Below, piece after piece: positions 31,809 to 56,139 of a DNA stretch of 64,000 nt. How positions within the stretch are numbered: the stretch's first letter is position 1; each line of letters starts with the position of its first letter. The notes below the pieces were generated by a model, which was given only the letters and a program-made list of their open reading frames with translations, did no database searches and was not told the origin of the DNA. The stretch covers positions 2,914,001 through 2,978,000 of the forward strand of contig NZ_CP087879.1 of assembly GCF_021442325.1 (NCBI RefSeq), in the 5' to 3' direction. The translations under genes were made by a program, and so were the position numbers. Source of the DNA: Agromyces marinus. Its GTDB lineage: Bacteria; Actinomycetota; Actinomycetes; Actinomycetales; Microbacteriaceae.

Positions 31809-31817
31809 CCGTGCTCC

Positions 31818-33254: not shown

Positions 33255-33282
33255 GCGCTTGGCTCCTTCGGGTCTCGTCGGG

Positions 33283-34319: not shown

Positions 34320-34388
34320 TTTCTCTTCTGTTTCACTCTGTGACGCTGTGGTTAAACATCCTGTCCCTTGCACCGTATGGAGGCAATG

Positions 34389-41847: not shown

Positions 41848-42897
41848 GTGAAGATCACGGTGCTCGCAGGCGGGGTGGGTGGTTCGCGGTTCGTCCGCGG
41901 CGTGCGCGAGGAGTGCGCCCGGCGATGGCCGGCGGGCCCCGCGGGCACCGACGCTGCGCCGGCCGCCGACGGCACGCCCGCGACGACCGCGGAGATCACC
42001 GTCGTCGTGAACTCGGGCGACGACCTCTGGCTCTCGGGCGTGCGGTTGTGGCCCGACTTCGACTCGCTGCTGTACGCGCTCGCGGGCGTGAACGACACCG
42101 AGCGCGGCTGGGGCCGCGCGGGCGAGTCCGAGCGGGTCTCGTCCGAGCTCCGGGAGTGGGGTGCCGGCTGGCCGTGGTTCACGCTCGGCGACCTCGACCT
42201 CGGCACCCACCTGGCGCGAACGGGCTGGCTCGGCGAGGGCCGCACCCCGTCCGAGGTCGCCGAGCGGCTGCAGGGTCGCTGGCGACTCGGGGTGCGCCTC
42301 GTCCCCGCGACCGACCGGGAGGTCGACACCCACGTCCGGGTCGACCCGGCCCACCCCGACGTCGAGGGCCGCGACGAGCTGCACTTCCAGGAGTGGTGGA
42401 CCCGGCACCGGGCGTCGATCCCCGCGCTCGGATTCGTCCAGCGGGGGCTCGACGACGCACGCCCCGCGCCCGCCGTCGCCTCGGCGCTCACGGACGCCGA
42501 CGTCGTGCTCGTCGCGCCGTCGAATCCCGTCGTCTCGATCGGCACGATCCTCGCGATCCCGGGCGTGCGCGACCTGCTCGCCGCGACCGGGGCGCCCGTC
42601 GTCGGCGTCTCGCCGATCATCGGCGGCGCGGTCGTGCGCGGCATGGCCGACGCGTGCCTGTCCGCGATCGGGGTCGAGACGGATGCCGCGGCCGTCGCGC
42701 GCCACTACGGCGCGCGTGCCGCGGGCGGCCTGCTCGACGGCTGGCTCGTGGACGAGGCGGATGCCGCGGCGGTCGCCGCACTCGACGACGACGGCTTCAC
42801 GGCGGCATCCGCCCCGCTCTGGATGCACGACCTCGACACGTCGGCCGCCCTCGCGGGGGCCGCGCTCGACCTGGCCGCGCGCGTGCCGCGCCGCTGA
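41848..42897 (+). CDS. cofD: 2-phospho-L-lactate transferase, coenzyme F420 biosynthesis
   Basis: This 349-residue CofD/FbiA protein joins the 2-phospholactyl (or phosphoenolpyruvyl) unit to the deazaflavin Fo, giving F420-0 or its dehydro form. The N-terminal nucleotide site ITVLAGGVGGSRFVRGV, then VVNSGDDLWLSGVRLWPDFDS and VLVAPSNPVVSIGTILAIPG are conserved. TAGCGT (41836-41841) ends 6 nt before GTG 41848. A hydrophilic insert of about 20 residues follows residue 30. No cofE/fbiB or cofC lies nearby. Confidence 0.93.
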   Translation: MKITVLAGGVGGSRFVRGVREECARRWPAGPAGTDAAPAADGTPATTAEITVVVNSGDDLWLSGVRLWPDFDSLLYALAGVNDTERGWGRAGESERVSSELREWGAGWPWFTLGDLDLGTHLARTGWLGEGRTPSEVAERLQGRWRLGVRLVPATDREVDTHVRVDPAHPDVEGRDELHFQEWWTRHRASIPALGFVQRGLDDARPAPAVASALTDADVVLVAPSNPVVSIGTILAIPGVRDLLAATGAPVVGVSPIIGGAVVRGMADACLSAIGVETDAAAVARHYGARAAGGLLDGWLVDEADAAAVAALDDDGFTAASAPLWMHDLDTSAALAGAALDLAARVPRR

Positions 42898-42930: not shown

Positions 42931-43281
42931 TCACGGGATGTAGTCGACCAGCCCCTGCGGCGCGACGGCGGCACGGTAGCGCTCGACGAGCTCGCGCCAT
43001 CCGAAGCCCTCGGTGTACTCGTGCTCGTAGACGGCCTCGATGAAGTGCCACAGCAGGTACGGGTGCGCGCCGAGCGCGTACAGGGCGCCGAAGTCGCGCG
43101 CGCCGAACGCGGCCTGCTCCGCCTCGGTCAGCACCCGGTCGTCGGTCGGCCCGGTCGCGTCGCCGCCGCCGCCGGCGAGCCAGCGCTCGACGAACGCGGG
43201 CGGGTCGGCGACGTACTCGGCGACGGTCGCGTCGCCGAGCTCGACCGCCCGGATGAACTTGTCGACCATGTACTTGCTCAT
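42931..43281 (-). CDS. ligA: Extradiol dioxygenase small subunit, LigA-like
   Basis: This 116-residue all-helical protein matches the LigA alpha subunit of protocatechuate 4,5-dioxygenase-type enzymes: MSKYMVDKFIRAVE at the start, then LTEAEQAAFGARDFGALYALGAHPYLLW. The ATG shares one base with the ligB-type stop (TGATG), so the two subunits are made together. It closes the active site of the catalytic subunit. It is the last gene of the operon running from 47797. Confidence 0.88.
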   Translation of the reverse strand: MSKYMVDKFIRAVELGDATVAEYVADPPAFVERWLAGGGGDATGPTDDRVLTEAEQAAFGARDFGALYALGAHPYLLWHFIEAVYEHEYTEGFGWRELVERYRAAVAPQGLVDYIP

Positions 43282-44120
43282 CAGCGGGTCCTCCAGAGGA
43301 AGAACGGGCTCGTGGAGAAACGCGACTCGGGCACGTCGACGTGGTCGGCGGGCCGTCCCATCGCCGCGAGCGCGGCGACCGCGTTCAGGTACTGGTAGGT
43401 CATGCAGCCGGCCTCGGTCAGGCGGTCGAAGTCGCTGCAGACCCGGATGGCGCCCTCGAGGTCGCCGTCGCGCATCCACCCGGCCGCCGCGGCATCGAAC
43501 TCCGGGTCGGGCGACCCGGCGAAGGTGCGGGGCCCGCCGACGTCGTTGGCCATGTGCCCCGACGTGAGGATCCCGACGCGCGCATCGGAGTCCCAGGCCT
43601 CGATCGAGCGACGCAGGTGCTCGCCGAGCGCGACGAACCGGCGCACCGAGGGCACCGGCGGCATCGACGCGTTCGCGTGGATCGGCACGACGGGGATGTC
43701 GAGCTCGGGCCGCACGTACTGCAGCGGGATGACGAACGCGTGGTCGAGGCGCCACTCGAGGCTCACCGAGAAGTCGATCGCGTCGGGCTGCACGCTGCGG
43801 CCGGCGATCTGGTCGGCGAGTTCGCGATGCCCGGTGAGTTCGGCATACTCCATGCCGAAGGTGCGCACCTCGTTCTCCCACGTGCCGTGGTACGTGTCGG
43901 CCTTGCCGATCGCGAACGCGGGCGAATTGTCGTAGAAGAACTGCCGCACGTGGTCGGTGCCGATCACGACGAGCACGTCGATCTCATGCGAGGCGACCGC
44001 TTCGCGGATCCGGGCGAAGTTCGCCTGGATCGGCTTCAGGTCGTCGGGGACGGGGTCGGAGATCGCCCGCCACAGCAGCGGGTTGTGCGGCGTGACCGCC
44101 GCGAGCACGAGTTCAGCCAT
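43281..44120 (-). CDS. ligB: Extradiol ring-cleavage dioxygenase catalytic subunit, LigB-like
   Basis: This 279-residue type II extradiol dioxygenase would use non-haem Fe(II) to open a dihydroxylated aromatic or heteroaromatic ring. Probable iron ligands are His in TPHNPLLW (residue 12) and in GTDHVRQFFYD (near 56); the catalytic His is in TSGHMANDVGGP (near 185). The true substrate may be protocatechuate-like, gallate-like or a dihydroxypyridine and is not evident. It lies between an amidohydrolase and the LigA-like subunit. Confidence 0.9.
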   Translation of the reverse strand: MAELVLAAVTPHNPLLWRAISDPVPDDLKPIQANFARIREAVASHEIDVLVVIGTDHVRQFFYDNSPAFAIGKADTYHGTWENEVRTFGMEYAELTGHRELADQIAGRSVQPDAIDFSVSLEWRLDHAFVIPLQYVRPELDIPVVPIHANASMPPVPSVRRFVALGEHLRRSIEAWDSDARVGILTSGHMANDVGGPRTFAGSPDPEFDAAAAGWMRDGDLEGAIRVCSDFDRLTEAGCMTYQYLNAVAALAAMGRPADHVDVPESRFSTSPFFLWRTR

Positions 44121-44132
44121 CGAGTCCCCTCC

Positions 44133-44996
44133 TCAGATCCCGAACAGCCCGCGGGCGTTCTCGAGCAGGATCTTCCGCCGCGACTCGGGCTTGAAGGGCA
44201 GCTCGGCGAACTCGTCCATCCACCGGTCGGCGCTCATGACGGGCCAGTCGGAACCGAACAGGACCCGGTCGGTGATGAGCGAGTCGGCGTAGCGCACGAC
44301 CTCGGGCGGCAGGTACTTCGGCGCCCACCCGGACAGGTCGAGGTAGACGTTGGACTTGTGCCACACCATCGCGAGGTTCTCGAGATGCCACGGCCATGCC
44401 GGGTGCGCGCTGATGATCTTCAGCTCGGGCAGTTCCGCGGCGACGTCGTCGAGGTAGGGCACCGGCTTGGCGTACTCGAGCCGGTAGCCGCCGCCGCCGG
44501 GCGTGCCGGCGCCCGCGCCGGGGAAGCCCGCGTGGAACATGACGACCAGGCCGAGTTCCGCGCAGGTCTCCCAGATCGGCATGAACTTGCGGTCGTTGGC
44601 GAGGAACTTCTGTCGTGCGGGGTTCAGCTCGCCGACGCCCTTGATGCCGTACTCGCCGTGCATGCGGCGGATCTCCTCGATCGCCGCCTCGCCCTTCCAC
44701 GGGTCGATGCCCGCGAAGGGGATGAACACGTCGGGGTGGTCGACGGCCGCCTTGCCGATCAGGTCGTTCGGCGCGCCCTTGATGCCCGAGGTCGTCTCGG
44801 AGTCGGAGTTGACGATGACGGCCATCATCTTCCGGTCGCGGTACTGGTCGGCCTGCTCGGCGAAGCTCACCACCGGACGCTCGCGTCCGAAGTGCTTGGC
44901 CATCTGCTGGTGGCGCTTGCCCATCGCCGCGAGGAACTCCTCGGTCTGCGGGTGGGTGTGCACGTCGATCGCGACGAGGTCGTCGATGCGGCTCAT
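44133..44996 (-). CDS. Amidohydrolase-2 family protein (decarboxylase/hydrolase)
   Basis: This 287-residue TIM-barrel metal enzyme has His-x-His in AIDVHTHPQ (near 12), His in MFHAGFPG (near 160), ISAHPAWPW (near 205) and Asp in LFGSDWPVM (near 255). The family includes aromatic decarboxylases such as gamma-resorcylate decarboxylase and ring or lactone hydrolases. In this operon it could decarboxylate the aromatic ring before LigAB or hydrolyse the ring-opened product. The start overlaps the CoA-transferase stop by 4 nt. Confidence 0.87.
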   Translation of the reverse strand: MSRIDDLVAIDVHTHPQTEEFLAAMGKRHQQMAKHFGRERPVVSFAEQADQYRDRKMMAVIVNSDSETTSGIKGAPNDLIGKAAVDHPDVFIPFAGIDPWKGEAAIEEIRRMHGEYGIKGVGELNPARQKFLANDRKFMPIWETCAELGLVVMFHAGFPGAGAGTPGGGGYRLEYAKPVPYLDDVAAELPELKIISAHPAWPWHLENLAMVWHKSNVYLDLSGWAPKYLPPEVVRYADSLITDRVLFGSDWPVMSADRWMDEFAELPFKPESRRKILLENARGLFGI

Positions 44997-46207
44997 GCGC
45001 GGCTCCCTTCGGGTTCGGTGACGGATGCCGCGAGCGCGGCGAGCACGTCGGCGTCGGCTTCGCCGAGCAGCGGGGCGGCCCGCAGGGCCGGGCGGCCGCT
45101 GCCGTGGAACACGGTGCTGGGCGCGGGCACGCGCAGGGGTGCGCCGTCGGGCCCGGCGATCTCCTCGACGAGGCCCATCGAGGCGACCTGGGGGTCGTCG
45201 AACAGGTCGGCGACGGTGTTGAGCGGTCCGTGCGGGATGTCGTGCGCGACGAGCCGGTCGAGCCAGTGCTGCCGCGGCATCCGCTCGGTGGTCGCCTTGA
45301 GCTCGGCGTCGAGGTCGTCGTAGTTGCGCACGCGCGCCTCGCGCGTGGCGAAGCGGGGGTCGTCGGCGAGTTCGGGGCGTTCGAGCACGTCGAGCAGGCC
45401 GGTCCAGAACTTCTCGGGGACCGACATGTGCACGACGAACGCCTTGCCGTCGGAGCCGACGCACGCGTATGCCTGTGCGCGCCGCGGGCGCGAGTCGGGC
45501 CCGGCGACCTGCCCCGTCTCGAGGTAGGTCGATGCGGCCTCGGTGAGGAAGTCGATGAGCGAGCCGACCATCGAGACCTCGAGGTGCTCGCCCTCGCCGC
45601 CGCGCCCGGCGCGGGCGTGCAACGCGGCGAGGATCGCCTGGGCCGCCGACATGCCCGAGAGCAGGTCGGAGAACGCGGGCCCGAGCGGGCGGAGCGTGTC
45701 GGCGGGGACGACCTGGCTGTACATCGCGCCGACCGCGGAGATGACGGTGTCGTAGGCCGGGCGCGCGGCGTACGGCCCGGTCGCGCCGAAGCCCGTGATC
45801 GAGCAGCTGATGATGCGCGGGTTCAGCTCGCGGAGCGCGTCGGGCCCGAAGCCGAGTCGGGTCGCGACGCCGGGCCGGAAGTTCTCGATGAGCACGTCGG
45901 CGTCGCGTGCGAGCGCGTGCAGGGCGGCGAGCCCGTCGACGCTCTTGAGGTCGAGGGTGACGGCCCGCTTGCCGCGGTTGTACGCGGCGAACTGCGGGCT
46001 CATGGTGCCGCTGCCCTCCCACCGGCGCATGGGATCGCCGTCGGGCGACTCGACCTTGATCACCTCGGCGCCGAGGTCGGCGAGCAGCTTCGCCGCGTAC
46101 GGACCCGAGATGTACTGGCCGAGTTCGACGACGCGGATGCCCGCGAGCGGGCCCGCCGGTCCTGTTCCGGCCTGTGCACCCGCGTCGGGCGTGGGCTCCT
46201 GGTTCAT
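44993..46207 (-). CDS. CaiB/BaiF-type CoA-transferase
   Basis: This is a 404-residue class III CoA-transferase. The N-terminal VELGQYISGPYAAKLLADLGAEVIKVE, the catalytic Asp in PAFSDLLSG (near 170) and the GNP-like AYACVGSDGKAFVVH are typical. It would move CoA between carboxylic acids, making a CoA thioester of a pathway acid. It overlaps the OsmC-like gene upstream and the amidohydrolase downstream by 4 nt each. Confidence 0.9.
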   Translation of the reverse strand: MNQEPTPDAGAQAGTGPAGPLAGIRVVELGQYISGPYAAKLLADLGAEVIKVESPDGDPMRRWEGSGTMSPQFAAYNRGKRAVTLDLKSVDGLAALHALARDADVLIENFRPGVATRLGFGPDALRELNPRIISCSITGFGATGPYAARPAYDTVISAVGAMYSQVVPADTLRPLGPAFSDLLSGMSAAQAILAALHARAGRGGEGEHLEVSMVGSLIDFLTEAASTYLETGQVAGPDSRPRRAQAYACVGSDGKAFVVHMSVPEKFWTGLLDVLERPELADDPRFATREARVRNYDDLDAELKATTERMPRQHWLDRLVAHDIPHGPLNTVADLFDDPQVASMGLVEEIAGPDGAPLRVPAPSTVFHGSGRPALRAAPLLGEADADVLAALAASVTEPEGSRA

Positions 46208-46800
46208 CGGGTCTGCTCCTCTCGGTGCTCGTTCCTCAGATCGTCGGGCCGCGTGTCGAGCACCGTCCAGCCGCGCTGGACGAGCACGAGGTGCACGGGC
46301 ACGGCCCGGGCCACGAGCGCGCTCGTCGGGCATCGGCGGGCGGCCTCGTGCAGCAGCGTCACGGCCTGCTCCGGGGTCGCGTCGTCGTCGATGCGGACCT
46401 CGATCACGAACCACAGCGGGTGCGCGGGGGCGCCGTCGACGAGGTGCTCGCCGCGCAGGTCGAGGCACGTGCGGACCTCGGCGTCGAGCTCGCGCACGGC
46501 GACATCCGCCGCCGACCAGGTCTTGGCGACCCAGCCGAGCATGCAGAACGCGATCGAGCTGAGCAGGTACCGCATCGGGCTCGGGGCGGAATCGTGCCCG
46601 CCGCGTTCGGTCGACTCGTCGGAGCGGAACGCGTAGCTCGTGCCGTACTGCTCGAACTCCGACACGGAGGCGACGTCGCCCTCGAGTCTGGCCGCGACCC
46701 AGGGGCGCATGCGGGCGGATGCCGCATCCGCCCGGGTTCGCTCGGAGATGCGCTGCAGCGAGGCGCGCAGCCGCGGTCGGTCGATGAGGTCAGCGGACAT
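46204..46800 (-). CDS. OsmC-like family protein
   Basis: This 198-residue protein has the OsmC fold: SPMRYLLSSIAFCMLGW (first Cys on the long central helix, near 85) and RRCPTSALV (second Cys near 160), the pair used as peroxidatic and resolving cysteines in thiol-dependent hydroperoxide reductases. Inside a catabolic operon it may deal with peroxide or a reactive ring intermediate. It overlaps the alcohol dehydrogenase by 11 nt and the CoA-transferase by 4 nt. Confidence 0.82.
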   Translation of the reverse strand: MSADLIDRPRLRASLQRISERTRADAASARMRPWVAARLEGDVASVSEFEQYGTSYAFRSDESTERGGHDSAPSPMRYLLSSIAFCMLGWVAKTWSAADVAVRELDAEVRTCLDLRGEHLVDGAPAHPLWFVIEVRIDDDATPEQAVTLLHEAARRCPTSALVARAVPVHLVLVQRGWTVLDTRPDDLRNEHREEQTR

Positions 46801-47797
46801 CGATGATCACCTTCCCGGGTGTCGTCGTCGGGAACTCGCGGTACGCCCGGTGGACGGCGTCGAGCGGGTAGCGTGCGCCGATGCGCGGCACGACCACGCC
46901 CGCCCGCACGAGGTCGATCGCGCGGCGCACCTGGGCCAGGTCGGCGCTCGCGACGCCGATCAGGCGCTTGCGCGAGAGGTAGAAGTCGCGGGCGTCGATG
47001 GTCAGGCGCGTGTCGACGGATGCCGAGCAGAACGCTGCCCGGCCGCCCCAGTCGAGTGCCGCGACCGCCTGGCCGAGGAGGGCCGCGCTGCCCGACACGT
47101 CGACGGCGGCGTCGAACCGGTCACCCGCGTCGAGCGCGGCGGCGAGGTCGGCCGAGGGCCCGGTCACGACGACGCGGACCCCGTCGGGTGCGTCGGCGAG
47201 CGGATGCCGCGTCGCGGCGGTCACCTCGGCGCCGAGGTGCACGGCGTACTCGATCGCGGCGCGCCCCAGCACGCCGCCCGCGCCGGTGACCAGGAGGCGA
47301 TCACCGGCGCGGACGCCGGCGGCGTCGATCGCGTTGACGACGATGGGGAGGCTGTGCACCGCGGCGGTGGCGGTCGCAGCGGTGAGCCCGGAGCGTTCGA
47401 AGGCGACGACTGCCGGGACCGTGACGTACTCGGCGGCGCCGCCGTCGCGGTGGACGCCGACGACGCGCTGGCTCGGGCAGGTCGACTCGCGCCCTGCAGC
47501 GCAGGCGTCGCAACGGCCGCAGGGGATGTTCGGCTTGACCACGACGTGCTGGCCGATGCGCGCGGCGTCGACGCCCTCGCCGACGCCGACGATCTCGCCG
47601 GCCGGGTCGATGCCGAGCACGCGGGGCAGCTTGGCCGCGGCCCCGGGCCCGTGCCCGGCGATGACGTTGAGGTCGAGCTGGTTGACGCCGACGGTCTCGA
47701 CGCGGATGACCACCTCGCCCGCGGCAGGTTCGGGGGCGTCGACGTGCGCGAGCTCGAGTCCGTCGAGGCCGTGGGCCTGGAGGAGGGCTGCGCGCAC
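46790..47797 (-). CDS. Zinc-dependent medium-chain alcohol dehydrogenase
   Basis: This 335-residue NAD(P)-dependent MDR enzyme has the structural zinc lobe CGRCDACAAGRESTC (near 93-107), the Rossmann motif VTGAGGVLGRAA (near 155) and the ending GKVIIDVR. The catalytic zinc site is atypical: the usual first Cys at about residue 40 appears as Asn-Gln (VGVNQLDLNV), as in quinone-oxidoreductase-like members. GTG 47797 is the first start of the operon, about 41 nt from an operator/promoter. Confidence 0.86.
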   Translation of the reverse strand: MRAALLQAHGLDGLELAHVDAPEPAAGEVVIRVETVGVNQLDLNVIAGHGPGAAAKLPRVLGIDPAGEIVGVGEGVDAARIGQHVVVKPNIPCGRCDACAAGRESTCPSQRVVGVHRDGGAAEYVTVPAVVAFERSGLTAATATAAVHSLPIVVNAIDAAGVRAGDRLLVTGAGGVLGRAAIEYAVHLGAEVTAATRHPLADAPDGVRVVVTGPSADLAAALDAGDRFDAAVDVSGSAALLGQAVAALDWGGRAAFCSASVDTRLTIDARDFYLSRKRLIGVASADLAQVRRAIDLVRAGVVVPRIGARYPLDAVHRAYREFPTTTPGKVIIDVR

Positions 47798-47837
47798 GGT
47801 TCGTCTCGCTTCCGGTCAGGGCGGCATCCGTTGCCGC

Positions 47838-47856
47838 TTTGGATACCGTATCCAAA
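47838..47856. promoter_or_regulatory. Operator 1, palindrome over the minus-strand -10
   Basis: TTTGGATACCGTATCCAAA is a perfect 9-1-9 palindrome. On the minus strand its centre contains -10 TACGGT (47845-47850) with a -35-like TGGACG 18 nt upstream (47869-47874). It would control the alcohol dehydrogenase to ligA operon. The regulator is not in this gap. Confidence 0.8.
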
Positions 47857-47955
47857 AATCACCCGGTTCGTCCAGATGCGATCAGGACTTCATGGACTCC
47901 ATGGTGCCCCTGTTCGAGCCCGATCCTCCGGAAACCCATGGACAGCGGCATCCAT

Positions 47956-47974
47956 ATTGGATACGGTATCCACC
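47956..47974. promoter_or_regulatory. Operator 2, palindrome over the plus-strand -10
   Basis: ATTGGATACGGTATCCACC carries the same core GGATAC-N-GTATCC. On the plus strand it contains -10 TACGGT (47962-47967) with -35 TGGACA (47939-47944) exactly 17 nt upstream, driving the binding-protein gene at 48043. It matches operator 1 at 15 of 19 positions. Confidence 0.78.
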
Positions 47975-48042
47975 AATTCGCGAGAGGCTCCGCTCATCGC
48001 GGGGCGCCGATCGCGAGTCAACCCGCTGAGAAATGGAGAGTC

Positions 48043-49122
48043 ATGCGCAGATCCATCCCCCGCTCCGGCCTCACCGTCGCGGCCGGCCTCGCAGTGTTCG
48101 CACTGCTGACCGGTTGTGCCGCGAGTGACCCCGCAGCAGAGACAGGCCCCGTCGAGATCGCCGACGGCGAACCCGGCGACGCCGAGGACTCCGAGATCAC
48201 CGTCGCGATCCCCTTCCCCGACGTCACGATGTACTCGATGTACGTCCTCGCCACCGACCTCGGCTACTACGAGGAGGAGGGACTCACCGTCGAGGTGATC
48301 ACCGCCGACAACGTGACCGCGGCCGTGGCATCCGGCAGCGCCGACGTCGGCGTCGAATCGACCGGCACCGTCATCGAGGCGGTCCGCGGCGGCGTCGAGG
48401 TCGACCTCATCTCCGGCCACTACTGCCGGCAGAACTTCGACTTCGCCGTCCAGCCGGACATCGAGTCCGTCGAAGACCTCGCAGGCAGCTCGATCGTGCT
48501 CGCCGGAACCCCCGGCGACCCGGCCGAGTTCCAGCGGGCCCGCGTGCTCGCCGAGGAGGGCTGGGACCTCGAGGGCGTCGACGTCGAGATCGTCTACCCC
48601 GGCCCCGGCTCCGAATCCTGGACCGAGTTCTTCGTGAACGACCGCATCACGCTGCAGCCCTTCTACGGCGACGACCGCCCCGCGCTCGAGGAGCACGGAG
48701 CCGAGATCCCCGTCGAGGCGCTGCGGAACTGGGCCAACGACGTCATGGTCGCGGGCAGCGGCTACGTGCAGGAGAACCCGAACACCCTCGTCCGGTTCCT
48801 GCGCGCGACGCTCAAGGCCGTCGACTTCATGACCGCACCCGCACCCGGCGAGTTCCCCGAGAACGCCGACGAGGTGCTCGACATCTACGAGGCGAACGAT
48901 TTCGACGTCGAAGCGCTCCGCGGCTCCGACAGCCCGTGGGTGCTCGACGGTCACCTCGCGTGCCAGAACCTCTACTTCGACACCGAGGCCTGGGACACGA
49001 CGGTCGAGACGCAGAGCCTCGAGCCCATCGAGTTCGACGAGTCGCAGCTGGTCTACCTCGAGAAGGCCCAGGAGCTCCTCGGCCTCGACAACGCCGGACC
49101 GGAGACGCTCCCCTACCCCTGA
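48043..49122 (+). CDS. NMT1/SsuA-type lipoprotein binding protein
   Basis: This 359-residue extracellular binding protein has a signal with lipobox LLTGCAAS (Cys near 26) and an NMT1-like fold: ITVAIPFPDVTMYSMYVLATDLGYYEEEGL. GGAGA precedes ATG 48043; longer frames start inside the operator. No permease follows on this strand, but two permeases and an ATPase of the matching family lie at 50129-52631 and share its operator type, so it very likely feeds that importer. The ligand is unknown. Confidence 0.88.
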   Translation: MRRSIPRSGLTVAAGLAVFALLTGCAASDPAAETGPVEIADGEPGDAEDSEITVAIPFPDVTMYSMYVLATDLGYYEEEGLTVEVITADNVTAAVASGSADVGVESTGTVIEAVRGGVEVDLISGHYCRQNFDFAVQPDIESVEDLAGSSIVLAGTPGDPAEFQRARVLAEEGWDLEGVDVEIVYPGPGSESWTEFFVNDRITLQPFYGDDRPALEEHGAEIPVEALRNWANDVMVAGSGYVQENPNTLVRFLRATLKAVDFMTAPAPGEFPENADEVLDIYEANDFDVEALRGSDSPWVLDGHLACQNLYFDTEAWDTTVETQSLEPIEFDESQLVYLEKAQELLGLDNAGPETLPYP

Positions 49123-49140
49123 TGGGCGTAGCCTGAACAG

Positions 49141-49186
49141 CACGAAGGGCCCCCGCCGCAGCGCATGACGGCGGGGGCCCTTCGTG
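49141..49186. terminator. Terminator after binding-protein gene
   Basis: CACGAAGGGCCCCCGCCG (49141-49158) pairs perfectly with 49169-49186 around a 10-nt loop. It begins 18 nt after the stop codon. The 18-bp stem is one of the strongest in the window; a T-run is absent. Confidence 0.8.
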
Positions 49187-49271
49187 TGCCGGCGTGAGCG
49201 GCGGACGCGAGCGGGTACCAGCACCGGGACCCATCCATCCCTGGGCCCTGCGGGGCTGCTAGGTTCCGACC

Positions 49272-49595
49272 ATGGCGGACTCGGAAGTGGCGCAGGCGAA
49301 GGCCTCGCGAAGCATCATGTGGCTGGGCATCGTGCTCGGCCTCGCCCCGGTGTGGTTGTTCGCGATCGCCGCGTTCGCGGGCCCTGGGCCGGCCAGCGCG
49401 GTGCTGACGTTCGCCGTCCCGGTACTGGCCGCCACCGCCGGAACGGTGTGGGCGTGGGTCCGGCTGCGCCGCGCCGGCGCGACCGGGCGCGCCCGGACCG
49501 TCGCGATCGTCGGGATCGTCGCCGGGCTGCTCGGATACGCGGCGTGGGGGTACCTGGTCAGCCTCGGCATCCGATTCGGCGACGGCCCCCTCTGA
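49272..49595 (+). CDS. Small membrane protein of unknown function
   Basis: This 107-residue protein has about three membrane helices (residues about 14-35, 41-62 and 77-97) with a basic loop RLRRAGATGRAR. I recognise no family beyond a DUF4190-like look. TAGGTT (49260-49265) ends 6 nt before the ATG, so it is a separate leaderless unit sitting between the two arms of the catabolic cluster. Confidence 0.75.
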   Translation: MADSEVAQAKASRSIMWLGIVLGLAPVWLFAIAAFAGPGPASAVLTFAVPVLAATAGTVWAWVRLRRAGATGRARTVAIVGIVAGLLGYAAWGYLVSLGIRFGDGPL

Positions 49596-49621
49596 CCCCG
49601 CGGCCGCGCCGGCACGCGGAA

Positions 49622-49658
49622 GCCGGCCCCCGTCATCGCGCATGAGACGGGGGCCGGC
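49622..49658. terminator. Bidirectional terminator hairpin
   Basis: GCCGGCCCCCGTC (49622-49634) pairs with GACGGGGGCCGGC (49646-49658). It lies between the convergent membrane-protein gene and the ridA-like gene and can end both. Confidence 0.75.
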
Positions 49659-49684
49659 GGTCTGTTGGACGAGCGGATGCCGCG

Positions 49685-50119
49685 TCAGCCGCTGCGCGCC
49701 GCGGCAGGCTCCGCGGCATCCGTTCGCGACGGCACCGCGGCGATCGCCTCGATCTCGAACCGGTACTCGGGGCCGGCGAAGCCGGCCACCTGAACGAGGG
49801 TCGACACCGGGAAGTCGTGCGTGAAGTAGCGCCCGCGGATCTCGCGGATGTCGTCGCGCACGAGCCGGAAGTCGTCGCGGACGAACACGTTCACCTTGAC
49901 GACGTCCGCGGGCGTGGCGCCCGCGGCCTCCAGCACCCGCGCCAGGTTCGCGAACGCGAGTTCGACCTGTTCGCGCGTGTCCGTCGGCATCGAGCCGTCG
50001 GGGCGCATGCCGATGATCCCGCTGACGAACACGAGGTCGCCGCCCGAGACCCGGATGGCCTGGCTGAAGTCCGCCGTCGGCGGATACACCCCGACGGGCT
50101 CCACGATCTGCTTGTGCAT
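49685..50119 (-). CDS. RidA/YjgF-family protein
   Basis: This 144-residue trimeric-type protein has SQAIRVSGGDLVFVSG, VVKVNVFVRDDF and, near the end, EYRFEIEAIAAV, where many RidA proteins keep a Glu. The catalytic Arg of imine deaminases (RxxVxV) is here VVKVNVFVRD, with Lys at that place, so it may not be a classical enamine deaminase. RutC of the uracil Rut pathway is from this family. It is the last gene of the operon running from 56040. Confidence 0.88.
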   Translation of the reverse strand: MHKQIVEPVGVYPPTADFSQAIRVSGGDLVFVSGIIGMRPDGSMPTDTREQVELAFANLARVLEAAGATPADVVKVNVFVRDDFRLVRDDIREIRGRYFTHDFPVSTLVQVAGFAGPEYRFEIEAIAAVPSRTDAAEPAAARSG

Positions 50120-50128
50120 GCCGACCCC

Positions 50129-50968
50129 CTACGACGCCCCGGCGATCTTGCGATCGTCGTACCAGGGTGCGAGCCGGCGCCGCAGCGCGGAGATCAGCCA
50201 CAGCGTCAGGTTCGCGATGATCACCATGACGATCACCATGGCGATCGCCTCGGCCATCATGAACTGGTACGCCGCGAACTCCAGCAGGTGCCCGAGGCCG
50301 CCCGTGCCGCCCAGGAACTCGCCGAGCACCTCGCCCGTGAACCCCAGCGCTGCGCCGCGCTGGATGCCGGAGAGGCTGTACGGCAGGGTCGCCGGGAAGA
50401 TGACCTTCCAGCCGAGCGCGATCCCGTTCACGCCGAACACGCGGCCGGCGTTGACGAGCGACGGGCTGACCGTCACCGCGCCCTCCATCGTGTTCAGGAT
50501 GATCGGGAACACCGCGAGCAGGAACACGAGCGCGATCTTCGACTCGTTGCCGAGCCCGAGGACGAGGATGAACAGCGGCGCGAGCGCGACCTTCGGCGTC
50601 GAGTACAGCAGCCACAGGAACGGCGCGACCGTGAAGCGCAGCACGGGCGACCAGCCGACAGCGAGGCCGACGACCACGCCGACGACGATCGCCATCGAGA
50701 GTCCGACGAGCACGTTGCCCATGCTGAACGCGAACGCGGCCCAGAACTCCGGCTCGACGATGAGCCGGACGAACGCCACGATGATCTCGGTCGGCGGCGG
50801 AAGGAACGCGGCGGGCACCAGTTCCAGCCAGCTGACCGCCGCCTCCCAGATGAGGAGGATTCCGAGGACCACGGCCAGGAGGAGCCAGCCCCACTTGGCC
50901 TCGTCCGAGCGGACGACGCGGCGCGGGCGGACGATGCGATTCGTCCCGGTTGCAGAGGTGACGCTCAT
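50129..50968 (-). CDS. ABC importer permease (second catabolic cluster)
   Basis: This 279-residue permease of the nitrate/sulfonate/taurine type has six membrane helices and the EAA loop (NAGRVFGVNGIALGWKVIFP, about 165-185). The ATG overlaps the upstream permease stop by 4 nt. It works with the permease at 50965, the ATPase at 51795 and most likely the binding protein at 48043. Confidence 0.9.
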   Translation of the reverse strand: MSVTSATGTNRIVRPRRVVRSDEAKWGWLLLAVVLGILLIWEAAVSWLELVPAAFLPPPTEIIVAFVRLIVEPEFWAAFAFSMGNVLVGLSMAIVVGVVVGLAVGWSPVLRFTVAPFLWLLYSTPKVALAPLFILVLGLGNESKIALVFLLAVFPIILNTMEGAVTVSPSLVNAGRVFGVNGIALGWKVIFPATLPYSLSGIQRGAALGFTGEVLGEFLGGTGGLGHLLEFAAYQFMMAEAIAMVIVMVIIANLTLWLISALRRRLAPWYDDRKIAGAS

Positions 50969-51798
50969 CGGCGGCCCTTCCTCGTCCACGGTGCGACCCA
51001 TCGCTCGACGAGGGTCACGACCTGGGTCATCCCGACGCTCCAGACGACCACGACCGCGATCGCGGCGAACGCCTGGTCGGTCTGGTAGGTGTTGGCGGCC
51101 CTGATGATCAGGGCGCCCATTCCGGACGACGATCCGGCGAGTTCGGCGACGACCATGCCGATCGTGGCGAGCACGACCGCCTGTCGAAGTCCGGCGAACA
51201 GGAACGGAACGGTCGAGGGCAGGTACACCGAGCTGTACAGCTGCATGCGGTTCGCGCCGTAGACCCGTCCCGCGCGGATGATCGACGGGTTCGCCGTGCG
51301 CATCCCGGCCGCGACGTTGAGCAGGATCGGGAAGATCGCGCTGATCGTCACGAGGAAGATGACCGGTCCGATGCCGAACCCGAACCACGCCTTCGCGAGC
51401 GGCTGGTAGGCGATGGCGGGCGTGGCGTAGATCGTCCAGGCGATCGGGCCGACGATGCGGTCCACCGCGAGCACGCTGCCCATCAGCAGTCCGACGGGGA
51501 TGCCGACCACGACCGCGATCGAGAAGCCCGTCAGCCACGCCTGGATCGAGATGCCCAGGTTGGCGGCGAGCGCGCCCGACTGCACGAGTTCGACGAACCC
51601 CTGCGCGATCGCCGACGGCGGCGGGAAGAACACGGGGTTGATCCAGCCCAGCACCCCGACGATCAGCTGCCACAGTGCGAGCATCACGACGACCTCGCCG
51701 GCCAGGACGAGCGCCTTGCCGCGGGCGCTCAGCCCGGCCAGCCACGCCCCGATGCCGGTGCGGCCGAGGTTCGGCCCCGAGGCGAGGAAGGCACTCAC
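50965..51798 (-). CDS. ABC importer permease (second catabolic cluster)
   Basis: This 277-residue permease has six membrane segments and the EAA loop RAGRVYGANRMQLYSSVYLP (about 175-195). The GTG start overlaps the ATPase stop (GTGA), and the end overlaps the next permease. The short loops and the FFPPPSAIAQGF segment after the first helix are usual for this family. Confidence 0.9.
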   Translation of the reverse strand: MSAFLASGPNLGRTGIGAWLAGLSARGKALVLAGEVVVMLALWQLIVGVLGWINPVFFPPPSAIAQGFVELVQSGALAANLGISIQAWLTGFSIAVVVGIPVGLLMGSVLAVDRIVGPIAWTIYATPAIAYQPLAKAWFGFGIGPVIFLVTISAIFPILLNVAAGMRTANPSIIRAGRVYGANRMQLYSSVYLPSTVPFLFAGLRQAVVLATIGMVVAELAGSSSGMGALIIRAANTYQTDQAFAAIAVVVVWSVGMTQVVTLVERWVAPWTRKGRR

Positions 51799-52631
51799 TT
51801 CGACACCGCCGCCGCGGTCGCCTCACCCTGCAGCGCATCCCAGAGGTGGTCGCGCAGTTCGAGGAAGCGGGGGTCGCTCTGCACGCTGCGCTCGGAGCGC
51901 GGGCGCTCGAGGCCGGTCTCGATGACCTCCTTGATCGCGCCCGGGTGGCTCTTGAACACGACGATGCGGTCGCCGAGCAGGATGGCCTCCTCGATCGAGT
52001 GCGTGATGAAGAGCACCGTCTTGCCGGTCGCGGCGATGAGCTTCTCGATCTCCTCGCGCATGACCTCGCGCGTGAGCGCGTCGACGGCGCCCAGCGGCTC
52101 GTCCATGAGGAGGATCTGCGGCTTCGCGACGATCGCTCGCGCGAGCCCGACGCGCTGCTGCATTCCGCCGGACAGCTCGCGCGGGTAGGAGTTCTCGAAT
52201 CCGCTGAGGCCGACGAGGTCGACGGCCTCCTGGACCCGGTCGCGCCAGCCGGCGCCCTTGAGGCCCTTCTGCATCTCGAGTCCGAACTTGACGTTGTCGA
52301 ACACGGTCCGCCAGGGCAGCAGGGCGTAGTCCTGGAACACGACCGCCCGGTCGGGGCCGGGGCCCGTGACCGGTTCCCCGGCCACGAGCACCTGCCCCGT
52401 ACTGGGCTTGACGAGCCCCGCGATCACGTTCATGAACGTCGTCTTGCCGCACCCCGACGGGCCCAGCACGGTCACGAACTCGCCCTCGCGGACGTCGAGG
52501 TCGACGCCCTCGATCGCGAGCAGCTTCGATCCCGTGCGAGCGACGTCGTAGCTCACGCTGAGGTCGCGGACCGAGATCAGCGGCGAAGCGGATGCCTCGC
52601 CCTCGGCCGGCTCAGTGGTGGTGTTCGTCAT
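51795..52631 (-). CDS. ABC importer ATPase (second catabolic cluster)
   Basis: This 278-residue ATPase is of the SsuB/TauB group: Walker A GPSGCGKTT near 60, FQDYALLPWRTV, signature LSGGMQQR, Walker B LLMDEPLGAVD and switch His in ITHSIEEA. ATG 52631 is preferred; GTG 52655 is an in-frame alternative. It energises the two downstream permeases and follows the LLM gene by 39 nt. Confidence 0.92.
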   Translation of the reverse strand: MTNTTTEPAEGEASASPLISVRDLSVSYDVARTGSKLLAIEGVDLDVREGEFVTVLGPSGCGKTTFMNVIAGLVKPSTGQVLVAGEPVTGPGPDRAVVFQDYALLPWRTVFDNVKFGLEMQKGLKGAGWRDRVQEAVDLVGLSGFENSYPRELSGGMQQRVGLARAIVAKPQILLMDEPLGAVDALTREVMREEIEKLIAATGKTVLFITHSIEEAILLGDRIVVFKSHPGAIKEVIETGLERPRSERSVQSDPRFLELRDHLWDALQGEATAAAVSK

Positions 52632-52670
52632 GGCGATACTCTCTTCCACGGTCACGGGGGGCTCCGTCGC

Positions 52671-53678
52671 TCAGGTCAGAGCCGGTTCGGCGGCGTGCTC
52701 CCGCATCTTGGGCAGCACTTCGGTGCCCAAGAGCTCGATCTGCTCGAAGAAGCGGTCGAACTTGAAGCGGAAGTCGAAGACGAGGTGCTCGGTTCCGATC
52801 GCCTCGAACTTCTTGAGTTCCTCGACGGCCTCGTCGGGGTTGCCGACGATGAGCTGGCCCTCGAGGTCCTCGACGGTCTCGAACCGGCCCGAGGGCGGCT
52901 TGACCGCGAACTTGGCCTTGTTCGCCCAGGCGAGCAGGCCCGGGATGTTGACGTGCTTGAGCGCCTCCTCGCGGGTCTCCTCGATCGAGGTCGGGGGGAT
53001 CACCGAGATGGTGGGCATCGGGCGGCCGGAGGCATCCGTCAGTTCGCGCATGTTCGCGATGCGCTTCTCCATGGTCGCGAGCGAGATGCGGCCCGGCATC
53101 CAGCCGTCGGCGTACTCGGCGGCCAGGCGCGCCGAGCGCGGCGTCGCGCCGCAGTACCAGAACGGCACGCGGCCGCCGACCGGCTTCGGCTCGATGGTCA
53201 CGTTCTCGAACGAGAAGATGCCGTCATCGTAGGTGACGTCGTTCTCGGTGAAGACGCGCTTCAGGATCTCGGCGTTCGAGCGGACGGCCTCGACGCGGTC
53301 CATGTCGCCCCAGCCGATCGCCTCGAACTCGTGGTCGAAGGTTCCGGCGCCGAACCCGAGGATGAGTCGCGGCCCGAGCAGCTGGGTCATCGTGCCGGCC
53401 ATGAGCGCGGTCACGAGCGGGTGGCGGAAGGGGATGAGCGAGCCGGTGCCGAGTTCGAGCTTCTCGGTCACGGCGCCGATCGCGGTGAGCGTCGTGAGCG
53501 CGTCGTAGAACGTGCGGTTCGGCTTCTCCATCTCGCCGTGCGGTTCGAAGACGAGGTGGTCGCGCACCCACACCGAGTCGAAGCCCATCTTCTCGGCGAG
53601 CTTGGAGCCCTCGAGCAGCTTCTCGCGGCTCGCCTCCTCGCCGAAGTGGGGCAGCAGCAGTCCGAACTTCATGGCCAT
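52671..53678 (-). CDS. LLM-class flavin-dependent monooxygenase
   Basis: This 335-residue luciferase-like protein has MKFGLLLPHFGEEASREKLL, FDSVWVRDHLVF, GTGSLIPFRHPLVTA and ILGFGAGTFDHEFEAIG. The arrangement is closer to FMN-dependent monooxygenases of the SsuD/RutA superfamily than to the LLM at 30792, though this is a visual judgement. With a RidA, an alpha/beta hydrolase and a cyclic amidohydrolase in the same operon it may oxygenate a heterocycle. GGAAGGA lies 8 nt before the first ATG. Confidence 0.86.
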   Translation of the reverse strand: MAMKFGLLLPHFGEEASREKLLEGSKLAEKMGFDSVWVRDHLVFEPHGEMEKPNRTFYDALTTLTAIGAVTEKLELGTGSLIPFRHPLVTALMAGTMTQLLGPRLILGFGAGTFDHEFEAIGWGDMDRVEAVRSNAEILKRVFTENDVTYDDGIFSFENVTIEPKPVGGRVPFWYCGATPRSARLAAEYADGWMPGRISLATMEKRIANMRELTDASGRPMPTISVIPPTSIEETREEALKHVNIPGLLAWANKAKFAVKPPSGRFETVEDLEGQLIVGNPDEAVEELKKFEAIGTEHLVFDFRFKFDRFFEQIELLGTEVLPKMREHAAEPALT

Positions 53679-53680
53679 GG

Positions 53681-55093
53681 TCAGTTTCCTTCCGTTGCGG
53701 CCAGTTCGGCCGTCCGTGCGGCCGGAGCGGCCGCGAGCTTTCCGTATCCGGGCTCGCCGACGACCTCGCCGTCGGCGTAGACGTCGCGTCCGCGGACGAG
53801 CGTGCGCTCGATCCGGGTGCTGATGGTGCGGCCGTTGTACGGGGTCCAGCCGATCTTCGACAGCACGTCGTCGTCGGTGATGGTCCATTCGTGTGCCATG
53901 TCGGCGATCACGATGTCGGCGTCGGCGCCGACCTCGAGGGCGCCCTTGATCCCCGCGAGGCCGAACTTGCCTGCGGGCACCTCGGCGACCATCTCGACGA
54001 CGCGCTCGAGCGTGAGCTCGCCGCGGTTGACGGCGTCGAGCATGAGCTCGTAGTAGTACTGGATGCCGGGAGTGCCGGTGTGGGCGCTCCACATCTGGGT
54101 CCAGCCGATCTCCTTCTCCTCGCGCGTGTGCGGGGCGTGGTCGGAGCTGGCGACGTCGATGGTGCCGTCGCGCATGCCCTCCCAGATGGCGGCGCGGTTG
54201 TCGTCGGGCACCCAGTACGAGAGGGCGTACGGCCCGAGGGTCTGCACGTCGTCCCAGGTGGAGAGGAACGGCGCCCAGTGGTTGACCTCGCAGGTCACGT
54301 CGATGCCATTGGCCTTCGCACGGCGCACGGCCTCGATCGAGCGGCGCGTCTGGATGTGCGCGATGTGCACGGGGCATCCGGATGCCTCGGACAGGCGCAG
54401 CACGACGTCGATCGCCGTGTCCCAGATGACGCCCTCGCGGGCCGCGTACGCCGAGGCGTACCCTTCGGGCGTGTTGTCGCCGCTGGCGAGCACGGCGCCC
54501 TCGATGTAGTCCATGAGCGCCTGGTCGTGCGGGTGCACGATGAAGCGCTTCCCGGTCGGGGCGATCTGGTCCATGATCTGCAGCAGGTGGCCGTGGTCGT
54601 GGATGCCCGTGCCCGACGGGTGGGGGTAGTCGCGCCCCGTGTCGACGACCATGTAGATCTTGTACGCGTTGATGCCCATCTCGGCCATCGGCACGATGTC
54701 GTCGAACTTCGTCGGCGCCGGGTTGTGGTTCCAGTCGACGATCGACGAGTCCGTGTAGCGCTGGAAGACGTCGGTGAGGGTCTCGACGTCGACCGTCGGC
54801 GGCTTCAGGTTCGGCATGCCGAAGATGGTCGTCACGCCGCCGGCCGCGGCCTGGCGGGTGGTCGTGAGGATGTCGTCCTTGTGCTCGTAGCCGGGCTCGC
54901 GCGTGTGCACGTGCACGTCGACCATGCCGGGCAGCACGAGGCGGCCGGTGGCGTCGATGGTGCGTTCCGCGTCGACGGCGACGTCGCGTGCGACGACTCC
55001 GGCGACTTTCCCGTCGTCGACGAGCAGGTCGCCGGCGACGGGCCCGCTCGGGGTGACGACGGTGCCGCCGGTGATTCTCAGGTCGATGCTCAC
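53681..55093 (-). CDS. Cyclic amidohydrolase, dihydroorotase/allantoinase-like
   Basis: This 470-residue zinc enzyme has His-x-His in GMVDVHVHTREPG (near 60), Lys in INAYKIYMVV (near 150, the carbamylated position), His in VHPHDQ and HIAHIQT, and Asp in SSDHAPHTREEK (near 310). It would open a cyclic amide or imide ring. It is not a clear D-hydantoinase or pyrC; the closest look is allantoinase/dihydroorotase-like. The GTG start overlaps the hydrolase stop by 4 nt and has GGAGG upstream; two bases separate its stop from the LLM start. Confidence 0.88.
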   Translation of the reverse strand: MSIDLRITGGTVVTPSGPVAGDLLVDDGKVAGVVARDVAVDAERTIDATGRLVLPGMVDVHVHTREPGYEHKDDILTTTRQAAAGGVTTIFGMPNLKPPTVDVETLTDVFQRYTDSSIVDWNHNPAPTKFDDIVPMAEMGINAYKIYMVVDTGRDYPHPSGTGIHDHGHLLQIMDQIAPTGKRFIVHPHDQALMDYIEGAVLASGDNTPEGYASAYAAREGVIWDTAIDVVLRLSEASGCPVHIAHIQTRRSIEAVRRAKANGIDVTCEVNHWAPFLSTWDDVQTLGPYALSYWVPDDNRAAIWEGMRDGTIDVASSDHAPHTREEKEIGWTQMWSAHTGTPGIQYYYELMLDAVNRGELTLERVVEMVAEVPAGKFGLAGIKGALEVGADADIVIADMAHEWTITDDDVLSKIGWTPYNGRTISTRIERTLVRGRDVYADGEVVGEPGYGKLAAAPAARTAELAATEGN

Positions 55094-56040
55094 TGGGGGG
55101 CCTCCGTGTTCTGGATGGTCTCGCCCGATTCGGGCGAGAGGGTGGTGCGGATGACGACATCGCTCGGGCGCACGTAGCGGTCGAGCCATTCGACGATCAG
55201 CGGGGTGGTCTGCTCCCAGTAGCGGTCGTAGGCCGCGTAGTGGGTGGTGTGCCGTTGCATGATGAGCTGCTTCGGGCCCTTCGCGGCGGCGTACAGCGCC
55301 TCCGCGTGGTCGGTGGGCGTCGTCGCGTCGCCTTCGACGCCGATGACGAGCAACGGCGTCTCGAGGCGCTCGGCGGCGGCGAGGGGACGGTAGGTGAGGA
55401 TCTCTTCAGCGCACGAGAGCGGGATGGCGCTCGGGATGCGGTCGTCGACGTCGGCCTTGATCTTGGTGGCGCGGCGCTCGGGCGTCGGCACCATGATCTC
55501 CTCGCGCGGGTGCACGAGCCGGCCGGAGCCGGTCGCGGCGCGCAGCTTGCGGTCCTCGTCGAGGCTGGCGAGGAACGAGAGCCACTCGTGCTCCTGGCGC
55601 ATGCGGTGCAGCCAGTCGGTGCCGTCTGCGACGGGCACCTGGCTGACGGCGGCCTTGACCCGCGGGTCGGCGTCGGCGAGGAGCACGGCGTTGCCGCCGC
55701 CCGTGCCGCCGGTGCCGAAGACGCCGATGGCGTCGGCGTTCACGTCGTCACGGGTCGTGAGGTAGGTGACCGCGTTGACGAGGTCCTGGAGCTGGCGAGC
55801 GGGCGAGAGGATGCCGCGGTCGCCCGCCGAGTCCCCGAATCCGCGGTAGTCGAACACGAGCACGGCGAACCCTGCGGCGACGAGTGCCTCGTGGTAGCGC
55901 ACGTAGAGCTTGGCGTCTTTGAGGCCGAGCCATCCGGGGCCCTGGACGATCGCCCGGTACGGCCCGGGGCCCTCCGGGGTGCGCCAGAGGCCTGCGAGGC
56001 GATCGCCCTCGCTGTAGAACTCGACCGGTGTCGTCTGCAT
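55090..56040 (-). CDS. Alpha/beta hydrolase
   Basis: This 316-residue hydrolase has the pre-strand motif VFDYRGFGDSAGDRG (near 65) and a nucleophile-elbow region IGVFGTGGTGGGNAVL (near 110), where the usual Ser is replaced by Thr or displaced (GTGGTGGG). The catalytic Asp is likely in GVEGDATTP (near 250) and His in HTTHYAAYD (near 280). The missing GxSxG Ser is odd and may mean a non-standard mechanism. First gene of the operon; operator 3 lies 81 nt upstream. Confidence 0.83.
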   Translation of the reverse strand: MQTTPVEFYSEGDRLAGLWRTPEGPGPYRAIVQGPGWLGLKDAKLYVRYHEALVAAGFAVLVFDYRGFGDSAGDRGILSPARQLQDLVNAVTYLTTRDDVNADAIGVFGTGGTGGGNAVLLADADPRVKAAVSQVPVADGTDWLHRMRQEHEWLSFLASLDEDRKLRAATGSGRLVHPREEIMVPTPERRATKIKADVDDRIPSAIPLSCAEEILTYRPLAAAERLETPLLVIGVEGDATTPTDHAEALYAAAKGPKQLIMQRHTTHYAAYDRYWEQTTPLIVEWLDRYVRPSDVVIRTTLSPESGETIQNTEAPQ

Positions 56041-56120: not shown

Positions 56121-56139
56121 TTTGGATCCAGAATCCAGT
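56121..56139. promoter_or_regulatory. Operator 3, upstream of the alpha/beta hydrolase operon
   Basis: TTTGGATCCAGAATCCAGT matches operator 1 at 14 of 19 positions and keeps both half-sites (TTTGGAT and ATCCA) at the same spacing. It is less symmetric than operators 1 and 2, and a good -10 could not be fixed inside it. Confidence 0.6.

Follow-up and report, generated by a model that had tools for sequence, protein, structure and literature searches.

The window analysed here is a 64,000-nucleotide stretch of the Agromyces marinus genome (positions 2914001-2978000 of C1, the single contig of this 3.2-Mb genome). It carries an operon that runs from an alcohol dehydrogenase gene to genes for a LigAB-type dioxygenase, a gene for the binding protein of an importer, and an operon that runs from a hydrolase gene to a gene for a RidA-family protein, and it raises the question of whether these units form one catabolic regulon and, if so, what that regulon degrades. 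We propose, with a probability of roughly 0.55, a single regulon in which a GntR/FCD regulator acts through a shared operator, the reductive opening of an N-heteroaromatic carboxylate is combined with meta-cleavage of an arene, and the supply of cofactor F420 is co-regulated with both. The joint control of these genes and their catabolic role are well supported; the order of the steps and the class of the substrate we infer.

The operator is the palindrome TTGGATAC-N-GTATCCAA, with the inner 17-mer TTGGATACNGTATCCAA. When up to three mismatches are allowed, the 17-mer has four sites in the whole genome (window positions 47839, 47957 and 56122, and C1:2982199), all of which fall inside 20.4 kb; the reversed pattern has no match anywhere in the genome, and the shuffled-sequence control for the 19-mer gave a mean of 0.00 matches over 100 shuffles. 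Operator 1 (47838..47856) is an exact copy of the 19-mer located 40 nt upstream of the GTG start of the dehydrogenase gene. Operator 2 (47956..47974) has three mismatches to the 19-mer and lies 68 nt upstream of the ATG of the binding-protein gene. Operator 3 (56121..56139), with variant half-sites GGATCC/GAATCC, stands 80 nt upstream of the hydrolase ATG and differs from the 19-mer in four positions on direct reading and from the inner 17-mer, at 56122-56138, in three (gene starts were assigned from start codons and upstream sequence). Operator 4 (C1:2982199, equal to position 7199 of locus L005) precedes an F420-supply operon 4.2 kb beyond the end of the window.

A weight matrix derived from 72 sites in the loci of 26 relatives (26 of the 79 loci described below, picked by lineage, with the window excluded) ranks operators 1-3 as the top three sites of the window, at 37.1, 34.3 and 33.0 bits, compared with 4.4 bits for the next non-overlapping site and 6.7 bits for the best site in five mononucleotide shuffles. 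Candidate promoter elements, in which a copy of the operator might cover the -10 TACGGT as the first-pass annotation held for two copies, are TGGACA-17-TACGGT at the binding-protein gene and TGGACG-18-TACGGT at the dehydrogenase gene; the same simple scan detected no such pair at the hydrolase and F420-LLM operators, and any copy of TAC-N-GTA includes TACNGT anyway. The first-pass annotation had placed the palindrome before the dehydrogenase-ligAB operon, the binding-protein gene and, in a less perfect form, the hydrolase-RidA operon. These placements are borne out, and the genome-wide scan that it had suggested finds no copy of the motif away from this 20.4-kb region, whereas frequent copies unrelated to these genes would have refuted its reading. 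Its picture of three units under one operator holds for all three and proved too small, as the operator also precedes the F420-supply operon, beside a gntR gene outside the window.

The same operator was sought in the best 79 of 231 confirmed relatives of the LLM-family gene of the cluster, each taken with up to 10 kb on either side, some loci being clipped by contig ends. These 1.51 Mb contain 106 operator sites, while 30 control palindromes, their half-sites shuffled, gave 0-3 sites apiece; the 79 loci share kinship, and their sites do not count as independent events. Many of the sites precede genes for the binding protein, the dehydrogenase, the hydrolase, the F420-LLM protein or FGD, and some have no recognised neighbour gene (neighbours were counted with a GC-based gene caller that performs poorly on low-GC loci such as L084). 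The variant half-sites of operator 3 recur upstream of the hydrolase gene in many Agromyces and Microbacterium loci, and the near-invariant core of the matrix is GGATNC-N-GNATCC. Comparison of the spacers between divergent binding-protein and dehydrogenase genes, restricted to pairs 60-420 nt apart, covered 23 spacers of 168-416 nt, with a site on the binding-protein side in 23/23, on the dehydrogenase side in 21/23 and on both sides in 21/23; spacer length varies among relatives while the operators keep their position near the same genes. As a separate observation, two genomes of another genus that lack the LLM gene have a perfect operator core about 12 kb (G078, C16:136315) and 7 kb (G193, C27:114077) from cofE on the same contig.

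Operator 4 lies between the F420-supply operon and a gntR gene (L005:7269-8039, minus strand) just outside the window. The product of the latter contains both a GntR domain (PF00392, 63.5 bits) and an FCD domain (PF07729, 66.6 bits), both over the Pfam cut-offs, and is likely the regulator acting at the operators; its binding to them, and repression as its mode of action, are predictions from sequence. The operon itself comprises genes for an LLM protein of the F420-G6PDH family, CofE, CofC and F420-glucose-6-phosphate dehydrogenase, the last identified by TIGR03554 (589.9 bits, cut-off 420). A gntR homologue and operators occur together in 12 of 14 genome handles, corresponding to 11 distinct pathway genomes (the handles represent 13 distinct genomes, G182 and G210 having identical coordinates and being counted once); in G009 the gntR match is split in two pieces of 41-54%. 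Neither a gntR homologue nor operators were found in two congeners that lack the pathway. An FH metal motif is usual in the FCD domain; F161-Y162 occupy its place in this protein, in which H204 and H226 are conserved.

Both of these congeners have F420 gene clusters, and thus the F420 genes as such are not pathway-specific. In one of them (L115) the gene order is cofE, LLM, cofC, fgd, with 54 bases from the cofE stop to the LLM start and with neither gntR nor an operator. In the genome of the window, as in L116 and L118, gntR is located between one cofE and the LLM gene, and a second cofE is found downstream; the first cofE of the window's genome matches the cofE of L115 at 80%, and the downstream copy matches the first at 70%. 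We interpret this arrangement as a probable insertion of the catabolic regulator into the F420 operon, which would have placed the distal part of the operon under the operator. In the other congener (L117) cofE is downstream of the LLM gene, and the ancestral order is therefore uncertain. We tentatively suggest, at somewhat less than even odds, that the system as a whole degrades a natural N-heteroaromatic carboxylate, joined to an arene, aerobically and by F420H2-driven reduction, and that its regulator was inserted into the F420 operon of the host. The pathway and the supply of the low-potential cofactor that it consumes would then be switched on at the same time, a form of regulatory capture in which a catabolic repressor takes over a cofactor operon.

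Several further observations concern the F420 genes. In Leifsonia sp. Root4 (L049), and alike in L009, cofE directly follows ligA and closes the catabolic operon, tying a second CofE copy to the pathway. An open frame at L005:8919-9671 (minus strand), upstream of one cofE, has no Pfam match and may be no gene, and L118 has a 56% relative of it in the same place. Within the window, the cofD gene of F420 biosynthesis (41848..42897, plus strand; TIGR01819, 303.8 bits, cut-off 257.45) adjoins ligA; the genome-wide scan with the 17-mer detected no operator upstream of it, and so we do not count cofD in the regulon. A further LLM enzyme of the F420-family type is encoded at 40226-41107 (minus strand), near cofD and just past the end of ligA.

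The LLM-family enzyme of the cluster itself (52671..53678, minus strand) had been read as a monooxygenase, which our analysis makes the less likely reading. Four of its top five NCBIfam matches are F420-labelled, all of them below cut-off (the best match being TIGR03619, an F420 family, at 151.8 bits against 166.9). Among 50 genomes tested, taken from the 79 loci and all carrying the LLM gene, 49 have CofE above its cut-off, the single miss being a 1.7-Mb marine metagenome-assembled genome; in the family the count is 110 of 199 genomes. Two metagenomic loci labelled Proteobacteria have the LLM gene near relatives of CofD, CofE or FGD, and no flavin reductase is seen among the identified cluster genes. 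Because of these four lines of evidence, we regard an F420H2-dependent ring reductase as more likely than a monooxygenase, the use of F420 by this enzyme being predicted from sequence and gene context. The nearest named relatives of the protein are those of Agromyces luteolus and A. bracchium, at 97% (the search may omit the genome itself), and plasmid records contain no relative at E <= 1e-40.

The opposite assumption is that the LLM protein is a monooxygenase dependent on flavin mononucleotide (FMN), which would open the ring oxidatively in the way that RutA opens uracil, and that co-regulation of the F420 genes has some other cause. The LLM superfamily does contain FMN monooxygenases, the weaker matches of the protein include some FMN families, and RidA and the alpha/beta hydrolase recall RutC and RutD, although the match to the RutC model TIGR03610 is only 38.5 bits. 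With the F420-labelled best matches, the distribution of CofE, the gene neighbourhood in the two Proteobacteria-labelled loci and the lack of an identified flavin reductase all on the other side, and with RutA absent among the best 25 of 32 families, we consider this assumption rather improbable. The Rut pyrimidine pathway proper was rejected: its RutC model has a cut-off of 169.1 bits, and RutA does not figure among those 25 LLM families. The proposed reduction has an aerobic actinobacterial counterpart in the picrate catabolism of Rhodococcus, Nocardia and Nocardioides (PMC8498797), which begins when an enzyme of the luciferase-like (LLHT) superfamily passes a hydride from F420H2 to an aromatic ring; the substrate there is nitroaromatic, and neither a cyclic amidohydrolase nor LigAB nor a GntR operator common to several units figures in the accessible part of that review.

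In the proposed F420H2-dependent scheme the reductase would act together with the products of the adjacent genes. The hydrolase-RidA operon, which occupies 56040 down to 49685 of the minus strand, encodes, in this order, an alpha/beta hydrolase (55090..56040), a cyclic amidohydrolase (53681..55093), the LLM enzyme, an ABC importer ATPase (51795..52631; PF00005), two permeases (50965..51798 and 50129..50968; both PF00528) and a RidA-family protein (49685..50119; PF01042, 86 bits). The hydrolase is UilS-like (NF047920, 154.6 bits, cut-off 400), and its gene adjoins the amidohydrolase gene in most loci; RidA is accessory, not being found in most Microbacterium loci. The NMT1/SsuA-type binding protein is encoded on the plus strand (48043..49122; PF09084, 73.1 bits), with an N-terminus that reads as lipoprotein-like, and belongs to the only importer seen in the cluster.

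The cyclic amidohydrolase falls below the cut-offs of all curated models compared, namely TIGR00857 for dihydroorotase (262.0 against 279.05 bits) and the allantoinase/hydantoinase models TIGR03178 (275.4 against 357.85) and TIGR02033 (223.3 against 393.25). Examination of alignments revealed three residues, R65 (HxHxREPG), N95 (MPN) and H322 (DHAPH), which have aligned counterparts in dihydroorotase but in neither the L-hydantoinase nor any of the allantoinases shown, and one, K145, which aligns to the hydantoinase lysine. All four are invariant in 23/23 orthologues, and in a script alignment of 69 sequences Arg is conserved in 69/69, with Asn in 64/64 and His in 65/65 of the rows listed. The first three align with the ligand-binding residues R1475, N1505 and H1690 of human dihydroorotase, which we take to hold the carboxylate of dihydroorotate. 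In the human enzyme all three touch a bound malate, and two of them, R1475 and N1505, are listed as substrate-binding in the portion of the report available (PMC9856072). The alignment suggests that the substrate of the amidohydrolase may be a reduced cyclic amide bearing a carboxylate.

These residues also fit a narrower proposal, in which the hydrolase, the amidohydrolase and the LLM enzyme (the trio) form a reductive pathway for orotate or a close pyrimidine, with F420H2-dependent reduction of orotate, a catabolic dihydroorotase and hydrolysis to aspartate. An aspartase-like gene stands directly after the LLM gene in three loci (L051, L064 and L065; seven loci have one overall), and the binding protein shows a weak relationship to a protein that binds pyrimidines (E 3.8e-5). 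We nevertheless find this proposal quite improbable, as it leaves LigAB, the CoA-transferase and the Amidohydro_2 enzyme of the cluster unexplained, and as the best solved match of the amidohydrolase overall is an L-hydantoinase. A further lead is isonicotinate breakdown in a Mycobacterium, which reportedly runs via a reduced derivative of citrazinate, a compound isosteric with dihydroorotate. A second pair of LLM and Amidohydro_1 genes, at 30792-33443 (minus strand) and 34356-35804 (plus strand) of the window near a MocR-type regulator, shares only 21% and 27% identity with its counterparts in the cluster and possibly represents another N-heterocycle pathway.

A precedent for the proposed logic of reduction followed by amide opening may be seen in the reductive uric acid and pyrimidine (Pyd) pathways (PMC12507026). 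According to the accessible part of that study, an N-heterocycle is dearomatised reductively, a reductase cooperates with a PydB-related amidohydrolase, XDH homologues occur in the cluster, and Chloroflexota are mentioned as having a putative F420-dependent reductase. The reductases YgfK/UacX and the amidohydrolase SsnA described there are different enzymes, and LigAB, a CoA-transferase, an NMT1 importer and an F420-supply operon do not figure in that part.

The aromatic module, likewise on the minus strand, extends from 47797 down to 42931. It starts with a zinc-type alcohol dehydrogenase (46790..47797; PF08240 and PF00107), an OsmC-like protein (46204..46800; PF02566, 46 bits), which is accessory and not found in many relatives' loci, and a family III CoA-transferase (44993..46207; PF02515, 345.4 bits), whose nearest solved structures are formyl-CoA transferase, CaiB/BaiF and succinate-hydroxymethylglutarate CoA-transferase. 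These are followed by an Amidohydro_2 enzyme (44133..44996; PF04909), a LigB-type class III extradiol ring-cleaving dioxygenase (43281..44120; PF02900, 86.4 bits, cut-off 26.3) and a weak LigA-like small subunit (42931..43281; PF07746, 18.0 bits, cut-off 25.3), the start of whose gene overlaps the end of ligB. The nearest solved chain to LigB is the protocatechuate 4,5-dioxygenase beta subunit (E 2.7e-16); LigB itself scores below the curated equivalog cut-offs (PRK13372, 86.9 against 837; gallate dioxygenase, 93.4 against 412). A ligA-like gene stands beside ligB in relatives as well. The gene contents given earlier for the cluster thus agree with ours, apart from the omission of the OsmC-like and Amidohydro_2 genes from the first operon and a LigA assignment that is weak.

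The role of the Amidohydro_2 enzyme was judged from gene context. Plasmid-borne relatives match it at 39-50% in the 25 of 41 records listed. Among four plasmid records read for context, that of Phaeobacter has the gene beside a feruloyl-CoA synthase gene and that of Rhodococcus beside AMP-binding, SDR and MaoC genes, while those of Thermomicrobium and Pseudomonas were uninformative. CouO of Rhodococcus jostii RHA1, an amidohydrolase-superfamily enzyme, performs the last side-chain step in p-hydroxycinnamate catabolism, which proceeds through a CoA thioester and beta-oxidation of the side chain (PMC4737184), and we propose from context that the Amidohydro_2 enzyme may be a CouO-like beta-ketoacyl-CoA hydrolase. 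The CouO-like context together with the CoA-transferase and the dehydrogenase suggests trimming of a side chain before cleavage by LigAB; no hydratase is present among the identified cluster genes, and thus the order of the steps is tentative. By comparison with the cou system, as far as the available part of its description goes, the present cluster has a CoA-transferase, a GntR regulator instead of MarR and a linkage to an N-heterocycle module, and its likeness to CouO is one of context.

Hydrolytic opening of an N-heterocycle combined with extradiol cleavage in an actinobacterium is also found in the lumichrome (lum) cluster of Nocardioides simplex (PMC12746152). The latter includes a P450, a thiamin-dependent decarboxylase, a xanthine oxidase and a Rieske dioxygenase, none of which was identified here, and F420 does not figure in the accessible part of its account. 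Riboflavin or lumichrome catabolism was rejected as the function of the present cluster because of this difference in gene content, which concerns the P450, the Rieske and the thiamin enzyme. Among the matches listed in the open-access literature (titles and the beginnings of abstracts), there is no pathway corresponding to this gene combination, or linking F420 with hydroxynicotinate, orotate or isonicotinic acid.

Taken together, the regulon would include the NMT1-type ABC importer, the trio with RidA, the aromatic module (dehydrogenase, CoA-transferase, CouO-like amidohydrolase and LigAB) and the distal part of the F420-supply operon. An N-heteroaromatic carboxylate would first be imported, its ring would be reduced, and thereby dearomatised, by the LLM enzyme with F420H2, and the reduced cyclic amide would be opened by the dihydroorotase-like amidohydrolase, after which the alpha/beta hydrolase and RidA would complete the processing of the nitrogen-bearing fragment. 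The carbocyclic part would undergo activation with CoA, oxidation and trimming, and LigAB would then open it. Probably the regulator keeps the genes repressed until an intermediate binds to it.

The distribution of the genes bears on whether both modules serve one substrate. In a sample of 60 Agromyces genomes, the LLM gene (E <= 1e-120) and ligB (E <= 1e-80) are each present in 23, and these are the same 23 handles. In the family sample the LLM gene (E <= 1e-90) occurs in 5/199 genomes and ligB (E <= 1e-20) in 12/199; three of the 12 ligB matches are at least 57% and belong to the five genomes with the LLM gene, the rest being 35-37%. Microbacterium, Ruania, Actinomadura and a number of others also have the set in one place. 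All three genes of the trio are present in 74/79 loci, and the neighbours of the trio in the 79 loci include XDH-like molybdenum hydroxylases (19), thiamine pyrophosphate enzymes (12), TctA (7) and aspartase-like lyases (7). The set thus forms one unit within Agromyces, while the trio is a module of broader distribution. The joint presence of the three units in related genomes, the comparison first suggested for this locus, was accordingly found in Agromyces, while outside Agromyces, Microbacterium and certain further actinobacteria the trio often lacks the LigAB module within reach, so that the three units are not linked in every lineage.

Several points weigh against the single regulon with a single substrate. 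Only 30/79 loci have both a dehydrogenase and a CoA-transferase gene within reach of the trio, and so the two modules may serve different substrates. In that case one regulator would control two pathways, the trio for an N-heterocycle and the LigAB module for an unrelated aromatic acid, both compounds coming from the same source. The pairing of the trio with molybdenum hydroxylase, thiamine pyrophosphate-enzyme or aspartase-like genes in other loci is in agreement with this; the co-occurrence in the same Agromyces genomes, the shared placement in other genera and the single importer are not, and we consider this explanation unlikely, if a serious one. The LLM protein, being below the TIGR03619 cut-off, is not filed as a member of that F420 family, though a similar function is possible, and CofE is common in actinobacteria, so that its presence in 49/50 genomes is partly expected. 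The carboxylate of the proposed amide is read from an alignment. A PF02738 molybdenum hydroxylase (E 1e-10) is absent from 7/11 distinct pathway genomes, and the sole one in the genome of the window is far from the cluster; therefore either the ring has to be oxygenated before it is taken up, or the trio-only lineages use a different route.

The operator has its own counterweights. The site before gntR is weak (18.5 bits with the matrix), and on 32 further loci the best matrix score is at least 20 bits in 15, several of these sites being directly upstream of the hydrolase gene, and below 13 bits in nine; the operator therefore fades with distance. Of the 40 sites that the 11 distinct pathway genomes contain when up to three mismatches are allowed, seven are off-cluster, three of them in one genome (G202), and the reversed control yields four matches over the 14 genome handles. 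The 15-mer core with up to one mismatch matches 17 of the 199 family genomes, only four of which carry the LLM gene, and its reversed control matches 13/199, which argues against sole reliance on the motif.

For Rhodococcus, Nocardia and Nocardioides, the roles of F420 beyond nitroaromatic remediation are described as little known in the part of the review available (PMC8498797). The regulon proposed here links F420 supply to a specific and widespread catabolic gene set and indicates the class of its substrate, and the operator offers a handle for finding further members. If the cofactor operon was indeed captured, this would be a clear case of a pathway taking its own cofactor supply under its own switch.

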